Shown: positions 9,792 through 21,439 of the stretch, piece after piece
How the letters are laid out: each line of letters begins with the position of its first letter
Position numbering within the stretch: the stretch's first letter is position 1
NCBI GenBank assembly: GCA_030041415.1
Contig: JASHNX010000150.1
Coordinates: forward strand, 1-34,190
Reading direction: 5' to 3'
Length of the DNA stretch: 34,190 nt
Origin: Candidatus Sulfotelmatobacter sp.
GTDB lineage: Bacteria; Acidobacteriota; Terriglobia; Terriglobales; Acidobacteriaceae
The notes under the pieces: model-generated
What the model saw: only the letters and a program-made list of their open reading frames with translations
Told to the model about the DNA's origin: nothing
Databases searched by the model: none
Translations under genes and position numbers: made by a program

Positions 9792-12452
9792 ATGATCGGC
9801 CAGAGTATCTCTCACTACCGCATTGTCGAAAAGCTCGGCGGCGGGGGCATGGGTGTCGTCTATAAGGCGGAGGATGTCAAACTCGGCCGCTTCGTCGCCC
9901 TCAAGTTCCTTCCAGATGATGTATCCAAAGATCCGCAAGCGCTGGCACGCTTCCAGCGCGAGGCCAAAGCCGCATCGGCTTTGAATCATCCCAGCATCTG
10001 CACGATCTACGAAATCGACGATCAGCACGGGCAGGCGTTCATCGCCATGGAGTATCTGGAAGGCATGACGCTGAAGCACAAGATTGCCGCAAAGCCACTG
10101 GAAATCGAGTCGATCCTGGATTTCGGAATCCAGATCGCCGACGCGCTGGACGCGGCCCACTCGAAGGGGATCATCCATCGAGACATCAAACCGGCCAACA
10201 TTTTCGTGACGCCGCGGGGACAGGCGAAGATTCTCGATTTCGGCCTCGCCAAGGTCACCGCCAACACACAGAGCAGCGGCCTGAGCTCGCCAACCCTGGA
10301 GATGGAAGATCACCTCACGAGCCCAGGCAGCGCAGTGGGCACGGTGGCCTACATGTCGCCGGAACAGGCTCGTGGAGAAACTCTCGACGCACGCACGGAT
10401 CTGTTTTCGTTCGGCGTGGTGCTCTACGAAATGGCGACAGCACGTCCGGCATTCTCCGGTGGGACTTCGGCGGTGATTTTCGACGCGATTCTGCATAAGG
10501 CTCCAGTGCCTGCGTTGCGATTGAATCCCGAGGTGCCACCCGAACTCGATCGCATCATTAATAAGGCCCTGGAGAAGGATCCTGAACTTCGTTACCAATC
10601 GGGCGCAGAATTGCGGGGAGACCTTAAGCGATCGAAACGCGATTCGGGTTCGGGAAGATCAAGCACGGTTTTGCCGAGCGCAGTCGAGTTGTCAGCGGGC
10701 GCTCCGGCGAGCGGCACGTCGAAAATAGCCGTCCCACCGGCGAAACCTTCGCGCAAAGCGTACATCGCCTTAGCGGCCATCGTTACCGTGATTGTTCTGG
10801 GCGGGCTGGCTGCATTTTATTTCCATAGTTCATCGAGCGGTCCGGAGAAAGTGGTTCAGATCAGCCACTGGAATAAACCAATGAACGCAGCCGTGCTCTC
10901 TCCCGACGGGCACACAGTGGCGTTCACTTCCCCGGTCGCAGGGTTCAACCAGGTGTTCGTGATGCTGTCTTCCGGCGGTGAGCCGCTGCAGCTTACCAAC
11001 GACTCCGTCGATAAGTTAGTCGAGAGTTTTTCCCCAGACGGCACTCAGATCTATTACACCAACGATTTCGCAGGACAAGAGAGCTTTGCCGTACCCACGC
11101 TCGGCGGCGCTGCTGCGGCCGTCGCCTCTGGATTCCACCTTGCGCTTTCTCCAGATGGAAACTTCTTCTACTTTGTGAAGGGCGGGTTCAGCAATGCCGT
11201 TTTTCGTAAACCGAAAACCGGATTGTCGGACGAGTTAATTTTTCCATCTCCCGAGGGTTCGAGCCCGGTCCGAATTCTGCCCTTTCCGGACGGCAATGAT
11301 CTGCTGATCGCGACTGGAAATGACACGGTGCTGGGGTCTACCAGTTTGACTCTCTATCGCGTGAACGCAGGCACGCACGCCTCGCAAAAAATCGGCGACC
11401 TCTCCGGAAGCCCGACAGGCCTGGTCTGGAACAGTCCTGGGAAAACCATTCTCTGCAGCCGGACGGTGAATGACATCACCAACATCTGGGAGTATCGCGT
11501 CGATGACGGCAGCTTGAGACAAGTCACCTCCGGCGCCGGGCCAGACTTTTCGCCTATGCCGGCTCCCGCAGGCAAGGGAGTATATTTCGTAAACGGCAGG
11601 CGATCCGGGTTCCTCACGGCGTATCACCCACTGACCAAGCAGTCTTTCGACTTGGTGAACGAAGAAGCCACCCAACCCGCCCTTTCATGGGATGGCCGCC
11701 ACATCATGTACATAACTCTTTCGGGCAATGCCCAGCAGGGAGATCTTTGGGCTTCCGATATAGACGGCAGCAATCGCGTCAAAATCACCTCCGGAACGGA
11801 ACTGCTCACGGTGACTTTTAATTCAGACGCTTCCAAGTTGGTATTTGCGGCAACTGAGGGCGGCAAGCCGAAGATCTACACTGTGAAGACCGACGGCACC
11901 GGACTGCGCCAGATTCCGTGGTCAGGAGTATCCGGCGGCTATGGTTCTGCTAGCGCTGACCCGAATTTTTTCTTTCTGGGTGGACAAGAATCCGACTTGG
12001 CTAAGGTGACGACATGGAAGGTTGCAACGGATGGATCAGGCTTGGAGAAATTGGTCGACAACTGCGGGGCTGTTTGGGATTCTTCATCGGATGGGAAATA
12101 TCTGCTCACATCGCTGAATACGGGAGCACAAAGCTTCGGCATCAGTGCGTACTCGCTGGCCGATGGTAAATGTATTCCGCTCCTACCGGACCTGAAAACT
12201 CTGGTCGTCCATTTCTCTTCCGATAACAAATACATTCTTTACATAGGCGCTTCCCGCGGAGAAACCACCATCTACCGCGTCCCTTGGCATGATGGAAAAC
12301 TCACCGGCTCGGCGCAGCCTGCGGTCACACTTCCCTTTGCCTTCCATCTGGGATACAGCGGAAATGCCTACGATTTTTCCAAAGATCTTTCTACGGTCGT
12401 CTATGCCCGCCCCAGCGGCGATGCCGATCTCTACCTTCTCAGCCGGAAGTAA
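9792..12452 (+). CDS. Transmembrane Ser/Thr protein kinase (PknB type) with C-terminal TolB/PD40-like beta-propeller
   Basis: 886 residues. The cytoplasmic kinase domain (about 9-280) is complete: glycine loop GGGGMGVV (16-23), ATP lysine K38, alpha-C Glu57, catalytic HRDIKPAN with D131, DFG with D149, and SPE at 189-191. A proline/serine-rich juxtamembrane stretch leads to one membrane helix (about 324-344). The outer part (about 360-886) carries repeated SPDG-type blades (for example [28 protein letters not shown]), typical of TolB/PD40 propellers. The kinase should sense something outside through the propeller and phosphorylate cytoplasmic proteins on Ser/Thr. It is nearly identical in its first 40 residues to the kinase at 28120-30405 but has a different sensor. 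No ribosome-binding site is evident; the start is set by alignment with that paralogue. It converges with the gene ending at 12532. Confidence 0.92.
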
Positions 12453-12531: not shown

Positions 12532-13308
12532 TTACGGCGTAATGCCAATCACTCGCAGTGGACTGCCTGAGCCGCCTACGATTTTCAAGGGCGCGGCGAT
12601 TACGATGGCCCCCGTCGCTGGAAGCTGATCCAGATTGCACAAGCTGGCTAAGCCAAACTTTCCGCTCCCGTGCATCAGATAGTGGTTTGGGAATGGAGGA
12701 TCGAAGGTGAACGCTTGGCTGGCGTCGGTCCCAACCGTTTCCACGCCGACACCAAGCACATCTCGCTTCTGTGCGAGCAGGGCCGAAGTTTCTCTGGCCA
12801 ATCCCGGAGTATGTGGGCCGTTTTCTTTCGCGTTGATGTAGTCCTTGGGATCTTTCCGCTTCGACCAGTCTGTGCGCAGAAGAACCCATGCGCCAGCAGG
12901 GATGCGGCCGTGCTTTTGTTCCCACTGCGCGATGCGTTCCGGAGTCACGAGGTAATCCGGATCCTGTGCTGCCTCGGCGCTGATGTTGATCACGCAAGCT
13001 GGACCGACAAATTTTTGTGGCGGGATTCGATCAACGGAATTGTCGGGAATATCTTTTCCTGAAACCCAGTGAATTGGCGCATCGAAATGAGTGCCAGTAT
13101 GTTCGCCGGTTTCGAATCCGTTCCAGTACCACGCAGGACCGCGCTCGTCATAATGGGAGAGCTCCCAGATCTTGAATGCAGGCGTGTTGTTGAACTGCGG
13201 CGGCAGCGGCAGTAGCGGCGTCTGCGGACTCAAAGGCTGGGTAAGATCGACCACTCGCAGCCGGCCGGCAGCGAGTTCTTCCATCAATTGAGCCAGAACA
13301 GAGGACAT
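12532..13308 (-). CDS. Cyclase-family metal-dependent hydrolase (kynurenine formamidase-like)
   Basis: 258 residues, the usual length. The signature H-T-G-T-H-x-D-x-P-x-H is present as HTGTHFDAPIH (70-80); His70, His74 and Asp76 are the expected metal ligands. Family members hydrolyse amide, lactam or lactone bonds, such as N-formylkynurenine or isatin; the substrate here is unknown. It lacks a signal peptide and should be cytoplasmic. The start at 13308 follows GGGGAAAACAA and gives the family N-terminus; an in-frame start 30 bp upstream is less likely. It is the last gene of a leftward arm after the two ThDP decarboxylase subunits, 52 bp downstream of the beta subunit. This places it with amino-acid breakdown genes rather than with a classical kynurenine operon, since no tryptophan dioxygenase or true kynureninase is seen. 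Confidence 0.82.
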   Translation of the reverse strand: MSSVLAQLMEELAAGRLRVVDLTQPLSPQTPLLPLPPQFNNTPAFKIWELSHYDERGPAWYWNGFETGEHTGTHFDAPIHWVSGKDIPDNSVDRIPPQKFVGPACVINISAEAAQDPDYLVTPERIAQWEQKHGRIPAGAWVLLRTDWSKRKDPKDYINAKENGPHTPGLARETSALLAQKRDVLGVGVETVGTDASQAFTFDPPFPNHYLMHGSGKFGLASLCNLDQLPATGAIVIAAPLKIVGGSGSPLRVIGITP

Positions 13309-13360
13309 TTGTTTTCCCCTACGAAATCTCACTTCCAAAACTGATCTTAAAAGGATCGAG

Positions 13361-13939
13361 CTAGGATCCCGGTCGCTTCAGCGACTGGATGTACCGACGG
13401 AACTGAAAGCGATTCTCCAAAAGTGAAAGGTCGGTGACATAGCCAGACGGGCCCGTCGCTTCGACTTTGGCGACGATGGTCGTCAGTTGGCTCCGTGCCA
13501 ACGCCTCTTTCACGGCAGTCCCGAAATCCTCCACCGTGCGCACCGTCAGCGCTTTTGGAATTCCCGACGCGCGAGCGATTCCTTCCAGATCCGTCCCTTT
13601 TCCTGTCGCGGTGGGAAAACCGCCGACCGACAATAAGCTCTCGTTGTCGAACACCACATGAACCAAATTCGCTGGCCGGTACCGCGCCATCGTGCTCAGG
13701 CTGCCAAGATTCATCAGGATCGACCCATCGCCATCCAGGACAATTATTTTTTGCTCGGGCAGCGACAACGCCAAACCCAAACCAGTCGAAGAAGCGAGTC
13801 CCATGGCATGTTGCAGATAAAAGAAATTGGGCCGATGACCAAGAGATTGCAACTCAGCTGCCGTCGCTCCCATGATCGTGACAGCCAAGCAATTTTCCAG
13901 TTCCGGATAAATCGCTTTCAAGCAGTCGAGGCGCAGCAT
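13361..13939 (-). CDS. ThDP-dependent decarboxylase, beta (cofactor-binding) subunit, sulfopyruvate/phosphonopyruvate decarboxylase type
   Basis: 192 residues. It carries the thiamine diphosphate/Mg site: LDGDGSILMN followed about 25 residues later by VVFDNES (the GDG...N motif), and the family stretch GLASSTGLGLAL. This is the C-terminal half of the split 2-oxo acid decarboxylases typified by sulfopyruvate decarboxylase (ComE) and related to phosphonopyruvate decarboxylase. It must pair with the alpha subunit encoded just upstream. Start chosen at the ATG at 13939, which shares one base with the alpha stop (TGATG) and follows GGAGG; a GTG 12 nt upstream is possible. The 2-oxo acid substrate cannot be read from the sequence. 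The next gene, the cyclase-family hydrolase, follows after 52 bp. Confidence 0.82.
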   Translation of the reverse strand: MLRLDCLKAIYPELENCLAVTIMGATAAELQSLGHRPNFFYLQHAMGLASSTGLGLALSLPEQKIIVLDGDGSILMNLGSLSTMARYRPANLVHVVFDNESLLSVGGFPTATGKGTDLEGIARASGIPKALTVRTVEDFGTAVKEALARSQLTTIVAKVEATGPSGYVTDLSLLENRFQFRRYIQSLKRPGS

Positions 13940-14451
13940 CACTCCTCCCACATCAGGTCGCGCATCAGCAGAAGTGCGACGGGTTGCAGGCTGCTTTCGG
14001 CCAGAGTTTGCGCTTGGCGAATTCGCTTTTCGACGTTGTCTGCTCGATCAAGAAACGAATAGGGAATGCTCATGGAGCGGAGAAGTGATTCGGTAACGTT
14101 GCCGCCCTGCGTCTGCCAAGGGTCGCGCTCGCCGAACGTGCCGCGGTAGCTGATGAGCATCAGCAGCGGAATTTTGTAGAGGTGTGCGAACGAAACAATG
14201 CCGTTGATCGATGCCAGGAATCCGTGGTTCTGCATCAGCATGGCAGATTTGACGCCGGCAAAGTGCGCGCCGGCTGAAATGCCGACTCCTTCTTCTTCTT
14301 TTGCCAGACGCACCAGAATCATTTCCGGATCGTCATCCGCCATGCGAATGAGATGGACCAGCCATGTTTCGGGCAACGCCGACATCAGCCGGACATCGCA
14401 TTTTTTCAGCGCGTCAAAGATAACCTTCGAACTGGCTACTGAGACTGGCAT
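13939..14451 (-). CDS. ThDP-dependent decarboxylase, alpha (pyrimidine-binding) subunit, sulfopyruvate/phosphonopyruvate decarboxylase type
   Basis: 170 residues, typical of ComD-like subunits. It has the family landmarks SALPETWLVHLI, then KEEEGVGISAGAHFAG, which contains the glutamate expected to activate the ThDP pyrimidine ring, then MLMQNHGFLASING and a RGTFGE loop. With the beta subunit it should decarboxylate a 2-oxo acid to an aldehyde. Known relatives act on sulfopyruvate or phosphonopyruvate, but many homologues are uncharacterised. I use the ATG at 14451; a TTG at 14493 extends it by 14 residues, and neither has a clear ribosome-binding site. First gene of the leftward arm, divergent from the class V PLP enzyme 77 bp away, so both arms are probably controlled from this short gap. 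Confidence 0.8.
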   Translation of the reverse strand: MPVSVASSKVIFDALKKCDVRLMSALPETWLVHLIRMADDDPEMILVRLAKEEEGVGISAGAHFAGVKSAMLMQNHGFLASINGIVSFAHLYKIPLLMLISYRGTFGERDPWQTQGGNVTESLLRSMSIPYSFLDRADNVEKRIRQAQTLAESSLQPVALLLMRDLMWEE

Positions 14452-14528
14452 GTTCTTGTTAGCCGGACAGTTCTGCCCGCTTTTACCCGACAAACGAAAA
14501 CAGATATTCTAGCTCACGGCGGCGAAGC

Positions 14529-15770
14529 ATGCCGTGCGAAGAACTGGCACCGCAAATGTCGGCTTCGCGAGTTCGGCTACGCTCTGTGGACTACACGCTC
14601 ATGCTGACTGAAGACGAAGTTCGCAAAATTCGTTCCCGGTTCAAGATTTTTCAGCGGAAGATTTATCTGAATAGTTGTTCACAAGGCGCGCTGTCCGATG
14701 CCGTCGAAACTGGCATGAGCGAGTTCATCTCGACCTGGCATGAGCAAGGTTCGCCCTGGGAGGCGTGGGTCGAACGATATGAGGCGGCGCGATCCGCGTT
14801 TGCGAGGTTTATCCATGCGAGTCCCGATGAAGTTGCCATCGTCACCAGCGTCTCAGCGGGGATAAACGGAATTGCCAGCGCTTTGAATTTTCGAGAACGA
14901 AACAAAGTCGTGATGGGCGAGTTCGAATTTCCTACCATGGGCCACATCTGGCTCGCACAACAAGTTCGCGGAGCCGAAGTGCAATTCGCCAAGGCGGAAG
15001 CCAATACGATTCCGACCGCCAACTACGCAAAGCTCATCGACCGCAACACGCTCATCGTGCCCCTCACCCACGTCTGCTTCAAGAACGGATTCCGTACCCA
15101 AATCGGTTCGATTGAGAAACTCGCCCACGATTCGGGCGCGCTGGTCATGCTCGATGATTACCAGGACTGCGGCACGCGCCCGGTGGACGTGAAAGCGATG
15201 AACCTCGACTTTTACGTTGCCGGCACGCTGAAATATCTGCTTGGCCCGCCCGGCCTTGCTTTTCTTTATGTTCGCAAAGAACTCATTCCATCGCTTGCGC
15301 CGTCGGTGACCGGATGGTTCGGGCAGGCGAATCCGTTCGCCTACAACCCGCAGCAGTTCGAGCTTTCGCCGACAGCGCGAAGATTCGAATCGGGATCTCC
15401 ATCCGTGCCCAATGTGTACGGAGCGCTACCCGGCTTTCAGATGCTGCAGGAAATCGGAATGGAGCACATTGCTGCCCACGTGGAATATCTTGCGCAATCG
15501 CTTTTGAATCGCTCACGGGATCTGGGCATCGTTGCAAAAACTCCAGCCGGAAGCTCAGGGCCGCTCGTCGTGTTGCAGTCCAACGATTCAGAGCAATTGC
15601 GCCAAGAGCTGGCAAAGAGCGGTATTATCGCCTCGACCCGTTTCGACGGCCTGCGGATCTCGTTTCACGTCTACAACACGGTCGACGACGTCAACGCGGT
15701 TGTGGAAGTTCTCAAAAAGAACATCCAACTCTTGGCCACTACTCCCGTCGGCGTTGCCAGCCATGACTGA
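14529..15770 (+). CDS. Class V PLP-dependent aminotransferase-fold enzyme (cysteine desulfurase/epimerase-like)
   Basis: 413 residues from the first ATG; the fold proper begins near residue 27, and ATGs at 14556 and 14601 are also possible, so the start is uncertain. Active-site features: H181 in LTHVCFKNG (cofactor stacking), D209 with Q212 in LDDYQDCG (pyridine nitrogen), Schiff-base lysine K235 in AGTLKYLLGPPG, and a C-terminal RISFHVYNT motif. These place it in the NifS/isopenicillin-N-epimerase-like branch. The cysteine-loop signature of a true cysteine desulfurase was not found, and the WCSYKYLN-like motif of kynureninase is absent. It may transaminate, eliminate or epimerise an amino acid. 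Its 3' end overlaps the permease gene by 8 bp. Divergence from the decarboxylase genes suggests that it supplies their 2-oxo acid. Confidence 0.82.
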   Translation: MPCEELAPQMSASRVRLRSVDYTLMLTEDEVRKIRSRFKIFQRKIYLNSCSQGALSDAVETGMSEFISTWHEQGSPWEAWVERYEAARSAFARFIHASPDEVAIVTSVSAGINGIASALNFRERNKVVMGEFEFPTMGHIWLAQQVRGAEVQFAKAEANTIPTANYAKLIDRNTLIVPLTHVCFKNGFRTQIGSIEKLAHDSGALVMLDDYQDCGTRPVDVKAMNLDFYVAGTLKYLLGPPGLAFLYVRKELIPSLAPSVTGWFGQANPFAYNPQQFELSPTARRFESGSPSVPNVYGALPGFQMLQEIGMEHIAAHVEYLAQSLLNRSRDLGIVAKTPAGSSGPLVVLQSNDSEQLRQELAKSGIIASTRFDGLRISFHVYNTVDDVNAVVEVLKKNIQLLATTPVGVASHD

Positions 15771-17214
15771 TCAGTCGCGCCCGGGCACCGTGGCAAGCCT
15801 CACGCCCGAATCTCCCATCATAGACTCGGAGGGTCTGCGCCGCGGCCTCACGCAGAGGCAGCTCACCATGATGGCCATCGGCGGCGCGATTGGCGTCGGC
15901 CTGTTCCTGGGCAGTGGCGTCACCATGCGATTAGCTGGCCCGGCGGTGATCCTTTCTTATCTTCACGGCGCGGTGGTCGCGCTAATCATGTCTTACGCAC
16001 TCGCGGAAATGGCGGTCGTGCATCCGGTCGCGGGGGCATTCGGAATCTACGCTGAGACTTATCTCAATCCCTGGGCAGGATTTTCCGTTCGCGCGACTTA
16101 CGGGGCTGCACAGATCATCGCGATTGGCGCTGAAGTTACAGCAGCCGGCATATATATGTCTTATTGGTTTCCGGATGTTCCCCAGTGGACTTGGGTGGTG
16201 CTGGTTTCGGCGTTGCTGGTTGCGCTCAATTCCATGCAGGTTCATCGCTTCGGCGAGTTCGAATATTGGTTTGCCATGATCAAAGTGGTGGCCATTATCG
16301 CCTTCATCATTGTTGGAATTTTTCTGGTTTTCGGCCGCGGATCACACGGTGCGACCGCTTGGGTTAACCTGACGCAACACGGAGGGTTTCTTCCCGCGGG
16401 ATGGAAAGGAGTCTGGCTTTCGCTCACCATCACAATCACCAGCTATATGGGAGTGGAAGTCATCGCCGTAACCGCGGGTGAAGCCGACTGTCCATCGGTT
16501 ACGATACCTCGCGCCATGCGCAGCATAGTCTGGCGGCTGATCCTTTTTTATGTCCTGGCGATCGCCATCATGGTCGCTATGACTCCGTGGAATCAGAGCA
16601 CGAGCGCATCGGGGCTTTCAGGCAGCCCGTTCGTTCTCGCATTTTCTGCTGCGCACGTGCCCTTCGCCGCCGCGATCATGAATTTCGTGGTGCTCACGGC
16701 AGCGCTTTCAAGCGTTAACACCAACCTATATCTTTCTACGCGCATGCTGTTCTCTCTTGGCAGGGAAGGCTATGCCCCAGCTTGGATGGGCAAGGTGAGT
16801 CGCAACGGAGTGCCGCATCACGCTCTGCTGGCCTCAACCGCAGGGATCATCGCAGCGATTTTGCTGGCCATCTATGCACCCAAGAACGCGTTTCTCATGC
16901 TCTTTGGAACGGCCGTCGCCGGAATGCTTTTCGTGTGGCTCGTGATTCTCGCAAGCCACCTCCGTTTTCGCGAAGCGCTTGCTCGCGAGCGGCTCTTGAG
17001 TTTGCCCATGCGCTTGCCGGCGCATCCGCTCTTCACACTAATCGGCATAGTCTTGCTGATCGCTATTTCGCTGACAACATTCTTCGTCGACGGATTGCGA
17101 TGGTCGGTACCGGCATTTTTTGTTTTTCTTGGACTCATCTCACTCTTGTATTTTCGCAACCGGGAAACGAAGACTGCGGGACAGCTTTCCACCTCTCATG
17201 CCGAGCCAGAATAA
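15763..17214 (+). CDS. APC-superfamily amino-acid permease
   Basis: 483 residues with about 12 predicted membrane helices. The first helix has the diagnostic IGGAIGVGLFLGSG stretch of the amino-acid transporter (AAT) family; the conserved loop GEADCPSVTIPRAM follows helix 6, and SRMLF-like SLGREGYAP lies later. It should be a proton-coupled importer of an amino acid in the inner membrane. The start ATG at 15763 overlaps the PLP enzyme's last codons by 8 bp; a longer in-frame reading runs back inside that gene but is only a shadow. The 3' end overlaps the flavin oxidase start by 17 bp. Tight overlap on both sides makes this one transcript, so the imported compound is probably the substrate of the neighbouring enzymes. 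No visible ribosome-binding site; translation is probably coupled. Confidence 0.92.
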   Translation: MTDQSRPGTVASLTPESPIIDSEGLRRGLTQRQLTMMAIGGAIGVGLFLGSGVTMRLAGPAVILSYLHGAVVALIMSYALAEMAVVHPVAGAFGIYAETYLNPWAGFSVRATYGAAQIIAIGAEVTAAGIYMSYWFPDVPQWTWVVLVSALLVALNSMQVHRFGEFEYWFAMIKVVAIIAFIIVGIFLVFGRGSHGATAWVNLTQHGGFLPAGWKGVWLSLTITITSYMGVEVIAVTAGEADCPSVTIPRAMRSIVWRLILFYVLAIAIMVAMTPWNQSTSASGLSGSPFVLAFSAAHVPFAAAIMNFVVLTAALSSVNTNLYLSTRMLFSLGREGYAPAWMGKVSRNGVPHHALLASTAGIIAAILLAIYAPKNAFLMLFGTAVAGMLFVWLVILASHLRFREALARERLLSLPMRLPAHPLFTLIGIVLLIAISLTTFFVDGLRWSVPAFFVFLGLISLLYFRNRETKTAGQLSTSHAEPE

Positions 17215-18625
17215 GTCTGCGCAGAATGATTCCGAGCAAGCGCGGGCATGCCGCGAGATTCACTCGGTGCTTCGCGGCCGATTCGACGGCGATCTTTTGC
17301 GCGCAGGCGATCCGGGATACGAAGAGGCGCGGACGATCTGGAATGGCATGGTCGCACGTCGGCCGGGCCTCATCGCGCGCTGCGCGGATGTTGGCGATGT
17401 TCGAATCGCCGTGCGAGCTGCAAACGAGATCGGCATTCTCACTGCTATCCGCTGCGGAGGCCACAGTCTCGCGGGTTTCAGCACTTGCGATGGCGGGCTA
17501 GTAATTGACTTGTCGAGGATGCGCGACGTATTTGTCGATGCCGATGCCCGCCGGGCGCGTGTTGCCGGCGGCTGCCTGTTGGGCTCGATTGATACCGCGA
17601 CACAAAAGGCAGGTCTTGTTTTTCCCTCCGGAGTCGTTTCCCACACGGGGGCATCCGGTCTGATTCTTGGCGGAGGCACTGGTTGGCTCACACGGCGGTT
17701 CGGGTTATCGTGTGACAATGTCGAAGCTTTTACTCTGGTTACGGCGGACGGATCTCTCCTTCACGCCGACTCAAAAGAGAATTCGGATCTGTTCTGGGCT
17801 TTGCGCGGAGGGGGTGGCAACTTCGGAATCGTGACCGAATTCGATCTTAAGCTCCATCCGCTGAAATCGGTTGTGCTTGCCGAAGGCCTTATTCCCGAGG
17901 CCAGCATCCGTCAGCTCCTTGAGTGCTGGCGTGACTTCATGGCTGATGCGCCATTCGATCTGAAATGGAATCTTAACCTCCGCCTCGCTCCGCGTCAGAG
18001 TAAGGTTCCGGCGCAACTTCGCGGAAGGCCGGTAGCGGAAAGTTCGCTGGTCTGGACCGGTGCTCAGGAAGCCGCACAAGCATATTTCGAGCGCGCTCTT
18101 TCGTTTTGCCACCCCGATTCGGTGCGAAGCCAAACCGTGTCATATCTAAACCTGCAGACCATGGCCGATTCCGACTTTCCGCATGGCCGCCGTTATTACA
18201 CGAAGTCCGGGTATTTTAGCTGTCTCAACGATGCAACCATCGATCGCTTTCTCGACGCGCTTGCCACGGTTCCATCAGCCGCAACGCAGATCGAACTTGC
18301 TTATCTGGGGGGAGCCGCTGGGCAGGTAGCCTCCGACGAAACGGCGTTCGGTGATCGCAGCGCGCCATTCATTCTTAATCTCCTGGCAAATTGGCCTCAC
18401 GCCGCAGGGGACGATCTACATATTTCCTGGGTTCGTTCGGTCTTCGAAAAGCTGCGTCCGGCGATGAAACCAGGTGTTTACGTGAACTTCATGAGCGGCG
18501 ACGAGCAGGACCGCGTGCCCGAGGCCTACCAACAACGATGGGAACGCATGGTCGAGGTCAAGACTCGCTACGACCCACGCAATTTCTTTTGCCTGAATCA
18601 GAACGTTCAACTACGGACAAATTGA
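17198..18625 (+). CDS. FAD-linked oxidase of the berberine-bridge (BBE/PCMH) family
   Basis: 475 residues. The FAD-binding domain shows RCGGHS with His89 (the usual 8-alpha-histidyl flavin attachment site), the pyrophosphate loop TGASGLILGGGTGWL, and GGGGNFGIVTEF. The C-terminal BBE segment RYDPRNFFCLNQNV is present. The cysteine that forms a second flavin bond in bicovalent members is replaced in the S-H-T-G-A-S-G loop, so a single covalent link is expected. Such enzymes oxidise alcohols, amines or sugars with O2. The start ATG at 17198 lies inside the permease gene (17-bp overlap); an upstream in-frame ATG at 17120 would lie deeper in the permease and is rejected. Last gene of the overlapping set. 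No signal peptide is seen, so it is probably cytoplasmic. Confidence 0.88.
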   Translation: MPSQNKSAQNDSEQARACREIHSVLRGRFDGDLLRAGDPGYEEARTIWNGMVARRPGLIARCADVGDVRIAVRAANEIGILTAIRCGGHSLAGFSTCDGGLVIDLSRMRDVFVDADARRARVAGGCLLGSIDTATQKAGLVFPSGVVSHTGASGLILGGGTGWLTRRFGLSCDNVEAFTLVTADGSLLHADSKENSDLFWALRGGGGNFGIVTEFDLKLHPLKSVVLAEGLIPEASIRQLLECWRDFMADAPFDLKWNLNLRLAPRQSKVPAQLRGRPVAESSLVWTGAQEAAQAYFERALSFCHPDSVRSQTVSYLNLQTMADSDFPHGRRYYTKSGYFSCLNDATIDRFLDALATVPSAATQIELAYLGGAAGQVASDETAFGDRSAPFILNLLANWPHAAGDDLHISWVRSVFEKLRPAMKPGVYVNFMSGDEQDRVPEAYQQRWERMVEVKTRYDPRNFFCLNQNVQLRTN

Positions 18626-20321: not shown

Positions 20322-21353
20322 TTACTTTCCTGCGCTGGCGACTGTTTGCGACGTCGCTGCTAATTGCTGCTCAATCACCTGGCGCAAAGTCGCATAGTCC
20401 AAAGCACCACTCATGAAGTGCCCATTGATGAAGAAGCTCGGAGTGCCGTTGATCCCGAGGCGAGTGCCTTCTTTTCGGTCCCGATCAACCGCGGCGGCTG
20501 CTTCTCCCGAGTCCAAGCATTTATCGAACTTTCCGGAATCCAGCTTCAAAGCTCTTGCTTGGGCTTTGAGTTGATCGACATCGAGTTCCTTGCTGCGGAA
20601 TAGTTCGTCATGAAACTCCCAGAACTCATTCTGCTCACTCGCACACCGTGCCGCTTCCGCAGCCTTCTCCGCGCGTGCATGCATCGGAAGGGGAAAATCT
20701 TTAAATGCGAATGAGACCTTGCCGCTATAGTCCGAGGCCAGTTTTTTCACATCAGAAGCGACCTTCTGGCAATAGGGGCACTCATAGTCAGCGAACTCAA
20801 CGAGGGTGACCTGTGCGTTCTCCGGTCCTCGCGTCATCTGCGGGTTCGCTGCTTCCAATGTCGCACTGGGGGGAGCGAGAACGATGTACACGGTCGATTC
20901 TGTGCGTAAGGTTTGAATATATGCAGTCTTGGCTTTTTCGGCCCGCAGTTGACGGATCTTTTCGAGAATCTTTTCCCGTACGACTTCGTAGGGCTGATCG
21001 GTCTCCACCCCTTCGTAATAGACCTTCATCTGATCCTCAGTAGGATCTTTCATCTTCGAGTTGACTTCCCGGTCGAGGAGCTGGGCGACCGTCAGGTGCT
21101 CGCTGGCCGCCTTCTGCTCGAGTAGTTTTTTGTCGATGAGGTCGTTTAATGCCTTCGTTTCGACTTGATAGTACTGATAGCGAGCAGCAAGAAGTTTCGC
21201 AGACTCTTCCTGTTCCAGATCAGACATCGTTATTTTCACGCCTCCAACATTGGCCACCGCGCTGTCGTCGCTATTATTCTGAGCGGCGCTCCGCCTCACT
21301 GCGATAAATGCAAGCGCCACGGTCAACCCCAGAACCATTTTGGAAACTGACAT
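20322..21353 (-). CDS. Exported DsbA-like thiol oxidoreductase with SurA-like N-terminal helical domain
   Basis: 343 residues. Signal peptide (about 1-25, ending RRSAAQ). An N-terminal region (about 30-150) with VANVGGVKITMSDLE and many charged helices resembles the SurA/PpiC N-terminal chaperone segment. The C-terminal half is a thioredoxin-fold DsbA (thioredoxin_4) domain with active site C192-P-Y-C195 in FADYECPYC and cis-proline loop GTPSFFING (T304-P305). It should form or rearrange disulfides in the periplasm. The ATG at 21353 follows GGGGGAG by 4 nt. The upstream gene encodes an eight-cysteine secreted protein, an obvious candidate client (inference). A short inverted repeat (21440-21456) lies between the two genes, and the strong terminator follows this one. 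No dsbB-like gene is seen. Confidence 0.87.
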   Translation of the reverse strand: MSVSKMVLGLTVALAFIAVRRSAAQNNSDDSAVANVGGVKITMSDLEQEESAKLLAARYQYYQVETKALNDLIDKKLLEQKAASEHLTVAQLLDREVNSKMKDPTEDQMKVYYEGVETDQPYEVVREKILEKIRQLRAEKAKTAYIQTLRTESTVYIVLAPPSATLEAANPQMTRGPENAQVTLVEFADYECPYCQKVASDVKKLASDYSGKVSFAFKDFPLPMHARAEKAAEAARCASEQNEFWEFHDELFRSKELDVDQLKAQARALKLDSGKFDKCLDSGEAAAAVDRDRKEGTRLGINGTPSFFINGHFMSGALDYATLRQVIEQQLAATSQTVASAGK

Positions 21354-21439
21354 AATCTCCCCCAATCTCATGCAATAAAGTTGCGGTCTGTGACAGTCCC
21401 GCTTATTTTTGCTTGCGAATGAACTCAATGAAACTGCGA

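Follow-up and report, generated by a model that had tools for sequence, protein, structure and literature searches.

Probable isatin breakdown by a divergent six-gene cluster of Candidatus Sulfotelmatobacter, with a split ThDP enzyme as candidate isatinate decarboxylase

Isatin and isatinate have been described as intermediates of bacterial auxin and indole breakdown. The closest described system is the iad pathway of Variovorax and Bradyrhizobium, in which indole-3-acetate is degraded to anthranilate by way of isatin and isatinic acid (PMC9613470, PMC12633357). Two compounds detected in that work, C8H7NO3 and C7H7NO, were put after the IadI product and before anthranilate (PMC12633357); their formulas fit isatinate and 2-aminobenzaldehyde, an identification made here, and the section of the paper that assigns genes to steps names none for the conversion of C8H7NO3 into anthranilate. 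Here we describe a cluster of six genes in a contig of the soil bacterium Candidatus Sulfotelmatobacter sp. (Acidobacteriota; GCA_030041415.1, JASHNX010000150.1), which probably breaks down isatin and which we read as a variant of isatin-route catabolism with a split thiamine diphosphate (ThDP) enzyme. The window, by which we mean the whole stretch of 34,190 nucleotides analysed, is one entire contig of an incomplete assembly (350 contigs), and is most closely related to Candidatus Sulfotelmatobacter and other metagenome-assembled genomes (MAGs) of Acidobacteriota. The cluster has two divergent arms (Table 1), the left with a hydrolase and the two ThDP subunits, and the right with a class V pyridoxal phosphate (PLP) enzyme, an amino acid permease and a flavoenzyme related to EncM.

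With the iad pathway the cluster would share the succession of isatin, isatinic acid and then a product one carbon shorter, and Bradyrhizobium loci have an isatin hydrolase relative beside genes resembling those for a thiolase, a coenzyme A (CoA) ligase and an ABC-type binding protein. In contrast, a Pfam scan of 12 window genes, the only part of the window and genome searched for them, shows no iad-type (Rieske-type IadCDE) oxygenase, thiolase or CoA ligase, and the cluster instead has the permease, the PLP enzyme, the EncM-like flavoenzyme and the split ThDP pair. In the pathway that we propose, the hydrolase would open isatin to isatinate (2-aminophenylglyoxylate, a 2-oxo acid), which the ThDP pair would decarboxylate to 2-aminobenzaldehyde and CO2. 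On the supply side, the permease would bring in an amino acid derived from tryptophan by oxidation (oxindolylalanine or dioxindolylalanine), the PLP enzyme would remove its amino-acid side chain and so free oxindole, and the flavoenzyme would oxidise oxindole C3 (from CH2 through CHOH to C=O) to give isatin. We infer both left-arm reactions from protein families, genomic linkage and alternative partners, and the chemistry and substrate of the right arm are likewise inferred. That the left arm degrades isatin and the right arm feeds it from oxidised tryptophan has, taken as a whole, about an even chance of being right; the parts differ in strength, as set out below.

The hydrolase and its split ThDP partner

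A sequence search of the PDB with the window hydrolase places the isatin hydrolases 5nnb, 5nna, 5nmp and 4j0n far ahead (E from 6.7e-99 to 4.8e-80), with kynurenine formamidase only at 1.1e-06. The features named for isatin hydrolases are the metal motif HxG[T/A]HxDxPxH, an Asp-His-His set, WXW or FXW, and GLQC or GLAS (Sommer et al. 2018, PMC6117287). In the window protein the metal motif reads HTGTHFDAPIH; His70, His74, Asp76, His80, Asp195 and His209 are present, with Asp195, His80 and His209 matching the proton-transfer set of LaIHA (Asp193, His79 and His207), and the GLAS signature and a WYW pocket motif complete the list. It therefore shares the Mn ligands, the Asp-His-His triad, GLAS and WXW with LaIHA and LaIHB of Labrenzia aggregata and RsIHA of Ralstonia solanacearum, and is identical to LaIHA in 143 of 254 aligned columns; the comparison with the crystallised enzymes is one of protein sequence, and the window hydrolase sits in an operon with the split ThDP enzyme. 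The metal motif recurs in 86 of 87 hydrolases, the exception (L065) being cut at a contig edge. Judged by its sequence, the window hydrolase very likely hydrolyses isatin.

Loci for comparison were collected by scanning genome contigs with the window hydrolase, which gave 131 relatives. The best 80 of these, plus 8 from a phylum sample and less 2 duplicates, make up 86 unique loci, a biased set in which some flanks are short. The phylum sample is of 199 genomes, the window's genome counted, where an alpha subunit is called close at 74% identity or more and a hydrolase at 55% or more; a sample of the genus, 45 genomes, was searched for close hydrolases at E up to 1e-60. Gene names in several locus surveys are by-eye readings unless backed by Pfam or NCBIfam, and our simple picker of open reading frames (ORFs) merges frames in GC-rich loci, the negative gene gaps in L038 and L064 being an artefact of this kind.

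Of the 86 loci, 31 have the ThDP beta gene, always on the hydrolase strand (31/31) and upstream of the hydrolase, and 29 of those 31 show an alpha gene as well. In all but two of the 31 loci, the beta gene and the hydrolase are at most 273 bp apart or overlap as picked ORFs; the two exceptions, L062 and L071, have other genes in between. As labelled, the split-pair loci belong to Acidobacteriota, Gemmatimonadota, Chloroflexota (Kouleothrix), a MAG called Bacteroidetes and a Clostridia MAG. All six genes recur in the same divergent layout in 12 of the 86 loci, and 15 have both ThDP genes together with a PLP enzyme 68–84% identical to that of the window. A close alpha subunit occurs in 4 of the 199 genomes of the phylum sample and adjoins the hydrolase in all four; a close hydrolase occurs in nine, and the cluster is patchy within the genus, where 21 of 45 genomes have a close hydrolase. 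Of the five genomes in which a close PLP enzyme occurs, three have a close hydrolase too, where 0.23 would be expected (hypergeometric P 6e-4; two of the three are of one genus). The cluster is real, conserved and linked beyond chance.

Among named families, the ThDP subunits best match sulfopyruvate decarboxylase (ComDE) and phosphonopyruvate decarboxylase, in each case below the curated cut-off. The alpha subunit scores 129.1 bits against 147.95 for TIGR03845 and the beta subunit 128.4 against 221.5 for TIGR03846, both models of sulfopyruvate decarboxylase, and the two subunits score 127.9 and 78.3 bits against the whole-model cut-off of 312.5 for the phosphonopyruvate decarboxylase model TIGR03297. 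Among solved structures, a putative phosphonopyruvate decarboxylase pair comes nearest (alpha 5e-17, beta 8.5e-18). The window pair has in common with these enzymes the family-level match and the GDG...N ThDP motif, as well as, with sulfopyruvate decarboxylase, the division into alpha and beta; it differs in its sub-cut-off scores, in its isatin hydrolase neighbour and in motifs of its own, namely SALPETW (28 of 30 alpha subunits), MQNHG (29 of 30) and PW[QH]T.GG (all 30). KEEE, which we take to be the site of the catalytic Glu, is kept in 29 of 30 alpha subunits, and the ThDP/Mg motif of beta in nearly all (GDGS in 31 and VFDN in 29 of 32 subunits). In the window alpha subunit DPWQTQGG replaces the DE-PQH segment of the phosphonate-context row of the alignment; PWQ alone also occurs in three of six other, uncharacterised alpha relatives. 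An alpha relative at L134, 35% identical and beside phosphonate-type genes (read by eye), is clearly distinct from the hydrolase-linked alphas. A sulfonate (cysteate or taurine) or phosphonate route was rejected on the strength of the sub-cut-off ThDP scores, and in the open-licence literature of PMC we found nothing that links sulfopyruvate decarboxylase with isatin.

In the alpha-subunit tree, which omits L032, L041 and L064, the hydrolase-linked alphas cluster together and separately from the six other relatives (support is a modest 94 and long branches meet, so that the tree is used only for the group as such). We consider it likely, given the linkage and the alternative partners described below, that the split pair acts on isatinate, and it is a plausible new isatinate decarboxylase, a candidate that we found nowhere linked to isatinate in the open-licence papers of PMC. 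An earlier model-made reading of the sequence (hereafter the first-pass annotation) had called a conserved catabolic-looking cluster with a ring-opening or amide hydrolase and an aldehyde-yielding decarboxylase, and its two arms do co-occur in other genomes, its hydrolase is by sequence an isatin hydrolase relative, and its decarboxylase gains support; the phylogeny that it proposed for the ThDP subunits also goes its way, to the extent that the alphas group apart from relatives in a tree where no sequence is biochemically characterised. It had left the substrate as unknown, which can now be narrowed to isatin and isatinate for the left arm only.

Other ThDP enzymes beside isatin hydrolases

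The strongest reason for supposing that the split pair may act on isatinate is that different ThDP-dependent 2-oxoacid enzymes occupy a similar place at other loci. In 12 of the 86 loci an IorA-like gene stands about 9 kb or less from the hydrolase, accompanied by IorB in 11, and none of these loci also has the split pair. Their identification is by tblastn except at L077, the one locus scanned with hidden Markov models for IorAB, where IorA scores 288 bits, below the cut-off of 651, and IorB 648, over the cut-off of 348. L060 joins IorAB to a gene 48% identical (tblastn) to a salicylyl/anthraniloyl-CoA hydroxylase-like query, and its hydrolase nests in the acidobacterial split-pair group (Shimodaira–Hasegawa-like approximate likelihood ratio test 95 for the branch holding L058, L060 and L063, in a tree of 85 sequences that leaves out L032, L034 and rows shorter than 230 residues); no alpha subunit was found in its 6.9-Mb genome at E up to 1e-10. 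The partner of E1/E2 type comes from one locus, in genome G054, where the hydrolase directly follows the E1 alpha, E1 beta and E2 genes of a 2-oxoacid dehydrogenase complex, and where the split halves of a salicylyl/anthraniloyl-CoA hydroxylase-like gene come after one more ORF past the hydrolase. In the window's own genome a search for anthraniloyl-CoA hydroxylase gave no real match (best E 2e-4). We thus name a two-gene candidate for isatinate decarboxylation and find two other types of ThDP enzyme in a similar genomic place.

Several observations speak against assigning isatinate to the split pair. Partner type tracks phylogeny, so that the counts overstate the exclusivity, and the IorA gene of L060 is 5.4 kb from the hydrolase, on the opposite strand, with an outer-membrane-protein ORF between. 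In half of the loci (43/86) both the split pair and IorA are missing from view, and 25 loci of iad type, all without IorA, are among these 43. In Variovorax, a nine-gene region from iadC to iadK2 restored anthranilate (PMC12633357); the IorAB homologues of the iad system are named iadA and iadB and so, going by name, fall outside that region. Isatinate may be processed in iad systems without IorAB, and the result with iadC to iadK2, together with the iad-type loci that lack IorA, weakens the replacement argument for the split pair. Of the nine genomes in the phylum sample that have a close hydrolase, five are without the alpha subunit, and in 12 genomes searched for it (10 of them chosen for a locus without the pair) there were six with no match and two with only relatives at 29–34%. 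Lastly, 12 of the 32 split-pair-linked hydrolases, the window's included, have GLAG instead of GLAS or GLQC (the others being 16 with GLAS, one with GLTS and three missed by the pattern; in the whole count eight proteins with the metal motif are, like L065, unclassified, the pattern having missed them or the protein being cut).

Four single loci from this survey are recorded here for their own sake. A Geobacteraceae MAG (L084, 2517–8908) has the hydrolase beside an aldehyde ferredoxin oxidoreductase gene and genes that look by eye to be of xanthine dehydrogenase type, perhaps an anaerobic isatin route. Two ORFs separate the beta gene from the hydrolase in Kouleothrix (L062, 4463–6459), one of which resembles a DNA cytosine methyltransferase by eye, perhaps a restriction-modification insertion. 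The Gemmatimonadota genome G248 has its ThDP pair (L139, 8589–9718) apart from the hydrolase, which is on a different contig (L075). The locus L106 is labelled Frankia sp. RB7, yet its hydrolase groups with Bradyrhizobium rows, and the record is probably mislabelled or mixed.

The right arm and competing readings

In a profile search the PLP enzyme matches kynureninase (1qz9, 3e-44) and SufS (1.4e-43) in a near tie, with kynureninase the best PDB profile match by a hair, and it falls under both family cut-offs (82.6 bits against 246.4 for TIGR01814, kynureninase; 130.5 against 475.1 for TIGR01979, SufS). Its AlphaFold2 model (mean predicted local distance difference test score 88) has the class V fold. 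The enzyme has in common with kynureninase and SufS the fold, the catalytic Lys and equivalents of Trp256 and of the carboxylate Arg, and is unlike them in having neither a Tyr226 equivalent nor, by profile alignment, the segment with the SufS catalytic cysteine; for Tyr226, Trp256 and Arg375 of kynureninase we assume the roles usually given them. A retro-aldol precedent exists in kynureninase. Relatives of the enzyme keep company with transporters: Gemmatimonas L071 has ThDP alpha, ThDP beta, PLP enzyme (36% identical), an SNF-family transporter and the hydrolase, all on one strand; G054 has PLP enzyme (49%), permease and a DAO-type oxidoreductase in the window order, with the hydrolase about 17 kb off on the same contig; and in G191 a PLP gene (46%) is divergent from a permease gene 45% identical to that of the window. 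The PLP enzyme and an amino-acid transporter thus go together in all three, and with an isatin hydrolase in two of them.

In the PDB the flavoenzyme matches best to EncM (2e-124), a flavin-N5-oxide oxygenase from the biosynthesis of enterocin. The residues given for flavin attachment and the oxygen pocket of EncM (His78, Leu116, Leu117, Val135, Val136, His138, Thr139 and Leu144; PMC7662398) are identical in the window protein (8/8) and kept in 12 of 13 other loci; in the remaining one, L064, the frame is broken and the picked ORF is without that part. EncM is described as hydroxylating an enolate carbon, after which hydride transfer gives the ketone (PMC7662398), and by analogy the same two steps at oxindole C3 would give isatin. 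Unlike that of EncM, the setting here looks catabolic, and the 12 scanned genes of the window include none of polyketide or carrier-protein type. If the right arm does feed isatin, oxidised tryptophan would have a route of breakdown here, and an EncM-type flavoenzyme would be acting in catabolism.

The supply of isatin or oxindole from oxidised tryptophan by the right arm is a tentative proposal, more doubtful than likely on present evidence, and the following count against it. Leu234 stands at the Tyr226 position of kynureninase; a fold search tried as a means of separating SufS from kynureninase gave good fits throughout, with kynureninase the lowest of three (Z 44.9 for cysteine desulfurase, 44.0 for cystine lyase and 42.8 for kynureninase), and no kynureninase is among the 50 matches listed by Foldseek for the model. 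L071 has no flavoenzyme gene, and four of the 13 other loci (L047, L048, L054 and L064) have it with a broken reading frame. L044 keeps the permease, the flavoenzyme and a second PLP gene, but shows no PLP gene of the window type. The permease frame is broken in L050; such broken frames in MAGs may be decay or assembly error.

Of the readings that would break up the proposed pathway, the one that survives best has two functional units sharing one regulatory gap, the hydrolase and ThDP pair for isatin detoxification, and the PLP enzyme, permease and flavoenzyme for unrelated amino-acid use. It is possible, if rather unlikely. A PLP gene of the window type is out of view in 15 of the 31 split-pair loci, and the flank on the relevant side, under 1.3 kb in six of these, is at least 2.9 kb in the other nine; further, G041 and G191 have PLP relatives 46–49% identical, and our sample searches there returned neither a close hydrolase nor an alpha subunit (a hydrolase relative in G191 is 40% identical). 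Set against this are L071, which unites the PLP enzyme, a transporter of a different family, the ThDP pair and the hydrolase on one strand, G054 with its PLP enzyme, permease and hydrolase on one contig, and the excess of genomes with both close PLP enzyme and close hydrolase reported above.

The first-pass annotation had PLP chemistry making the 2-oxo acid for the ThDP enzyme; the pair would then work in the manner of sulfopyruvate decarboxylase, and the hydrolase would act on another ring. The best named family matches of the ThDP pair and the adjoining class V PLP gene agree with this, whereas the sub-cut-off scores, the DPWQTQGG segment (with the reservation on PWQ made above) and the closer association of the ThDP pair with the hydrolase than with the PLP enzyme, as the 15 loci without such a PLP gene attest, leave it unsupported and, we judge, improbable. 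Isatinate, the product expected of the hydrolase, is moreover a 2-oxo acid itself.

That the PLP enzyme is a second kynureninase, in a kynurenine-salvage variant with the hydrolase as formamidase, is most improbable: the narrow lead of kynureninase in the profile search and the PLP relatives near CoA-ester genes in G054 and G041 would suit this, but the TIGR01814 score, the replacement of Tyr226 by Leu and the far stronger match of the hydrolase to isatin hydrolase than to kynurenine formamidase would not, the ThDP enzyme would be left without a role, and the window's genome encodes tryptophan 2,3-dioxygenase at another place and, at two contig ends, fragments of kynureninase that score over the family cut-off, in keeping with the view of the first-pass annotation that this is not a classical kynurenine route.

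Returning to isatin breakdown fed from oxidised tryptophan, its fullest version would be a complete new route, comprising oxindolylalanine import, a new PLP lyase, a one-step dual oxidation by a flavin-N5-oxide enzyme, and isatin hydrolase with a new isatinate decarboxylase yielding 2-aminobenzaldehyde; in that complete form we consider it unlikely. As a separate observation, a second class V PLP enzyme (L042, 6453–7754; TIGR01976 523 bits against a cut-off of 352) is the first right-arm gene in 10 of the 86 loci, and no enzyme of this type was found between the arms in the window.

Layout and neighbouring genes

ORF and family scans confirm the six ORFs of the first-pass annotation with their strands, families, overlaps of 1, 8 and 17 bp and 77-bp gap, the overlaps and gap holding for the chosen starts (Table 1). 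The hydrolase is taken to start at the ATG at 13308, the TTG alternative being at 13338. In an alignment of the PLP enzyme with 20 relatives, nine of these begin at the methionine equivalent to 14601, so the true gap between the arms may be 149 bp. No consensus promoter was found in the inter-arm gap, where regional counts are no higher than in shuffled sequence, and an RNA search of the region gave no Rfam match.

Table 1. Features of the cluster, in window coordinates
Feature	Position	Strand	Basis or remark
Isatin hydrolase family protein, Mn-dependent cyclic amidohydrolase fold, 258 amino acids	12532..13308	-	PF04199 E 3.5e-42; PDB isatin hydrolases
ThDP enzyme beta subunit, C-terminal ThDP-binding domain (TPP_enzyme_C); proposed isatinate decarboxylase beta	13361..13939	-	PF02775 E 8e-19
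ThDP enzyme alpha subunit, N-terminal pyrimidine-binding domain (TPP_enzyme_N); proposed isatinate decarboxylase alpha	13939..14451	-	PF02776 E 5e-06
Gap between divergent arms	14452..14528	.	to 14600 if the PLP gene begins at 14601
Class V PLP enzyme (Aminotran_5), kynureninase/SufS-like, without SufS cysteine segment	14529..15770	+	PF00266 E 8e-42
Amino acid permease, APC type (AA_permease)	15763..17214	+	PF00324 E 7e-105
EncM-like flavin adenine dinucleotide (FAD) oxidase/oxygenase (FAD_binding_4/BBE)	17198..18625	+	PF01565 and PF08031; PDB EncM E 2e-124

A gene for a serine/threonine protein kinase with PD40 propeller repeats (window 9792–12452) adjoins the cluster, and matches to it lie near the hydrolase in L038, L041 and L064. 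Farther along, at window 20322–21356, a SurA-type N-terminal domain and a DsbA/thioredoxin domain are found within one chain.

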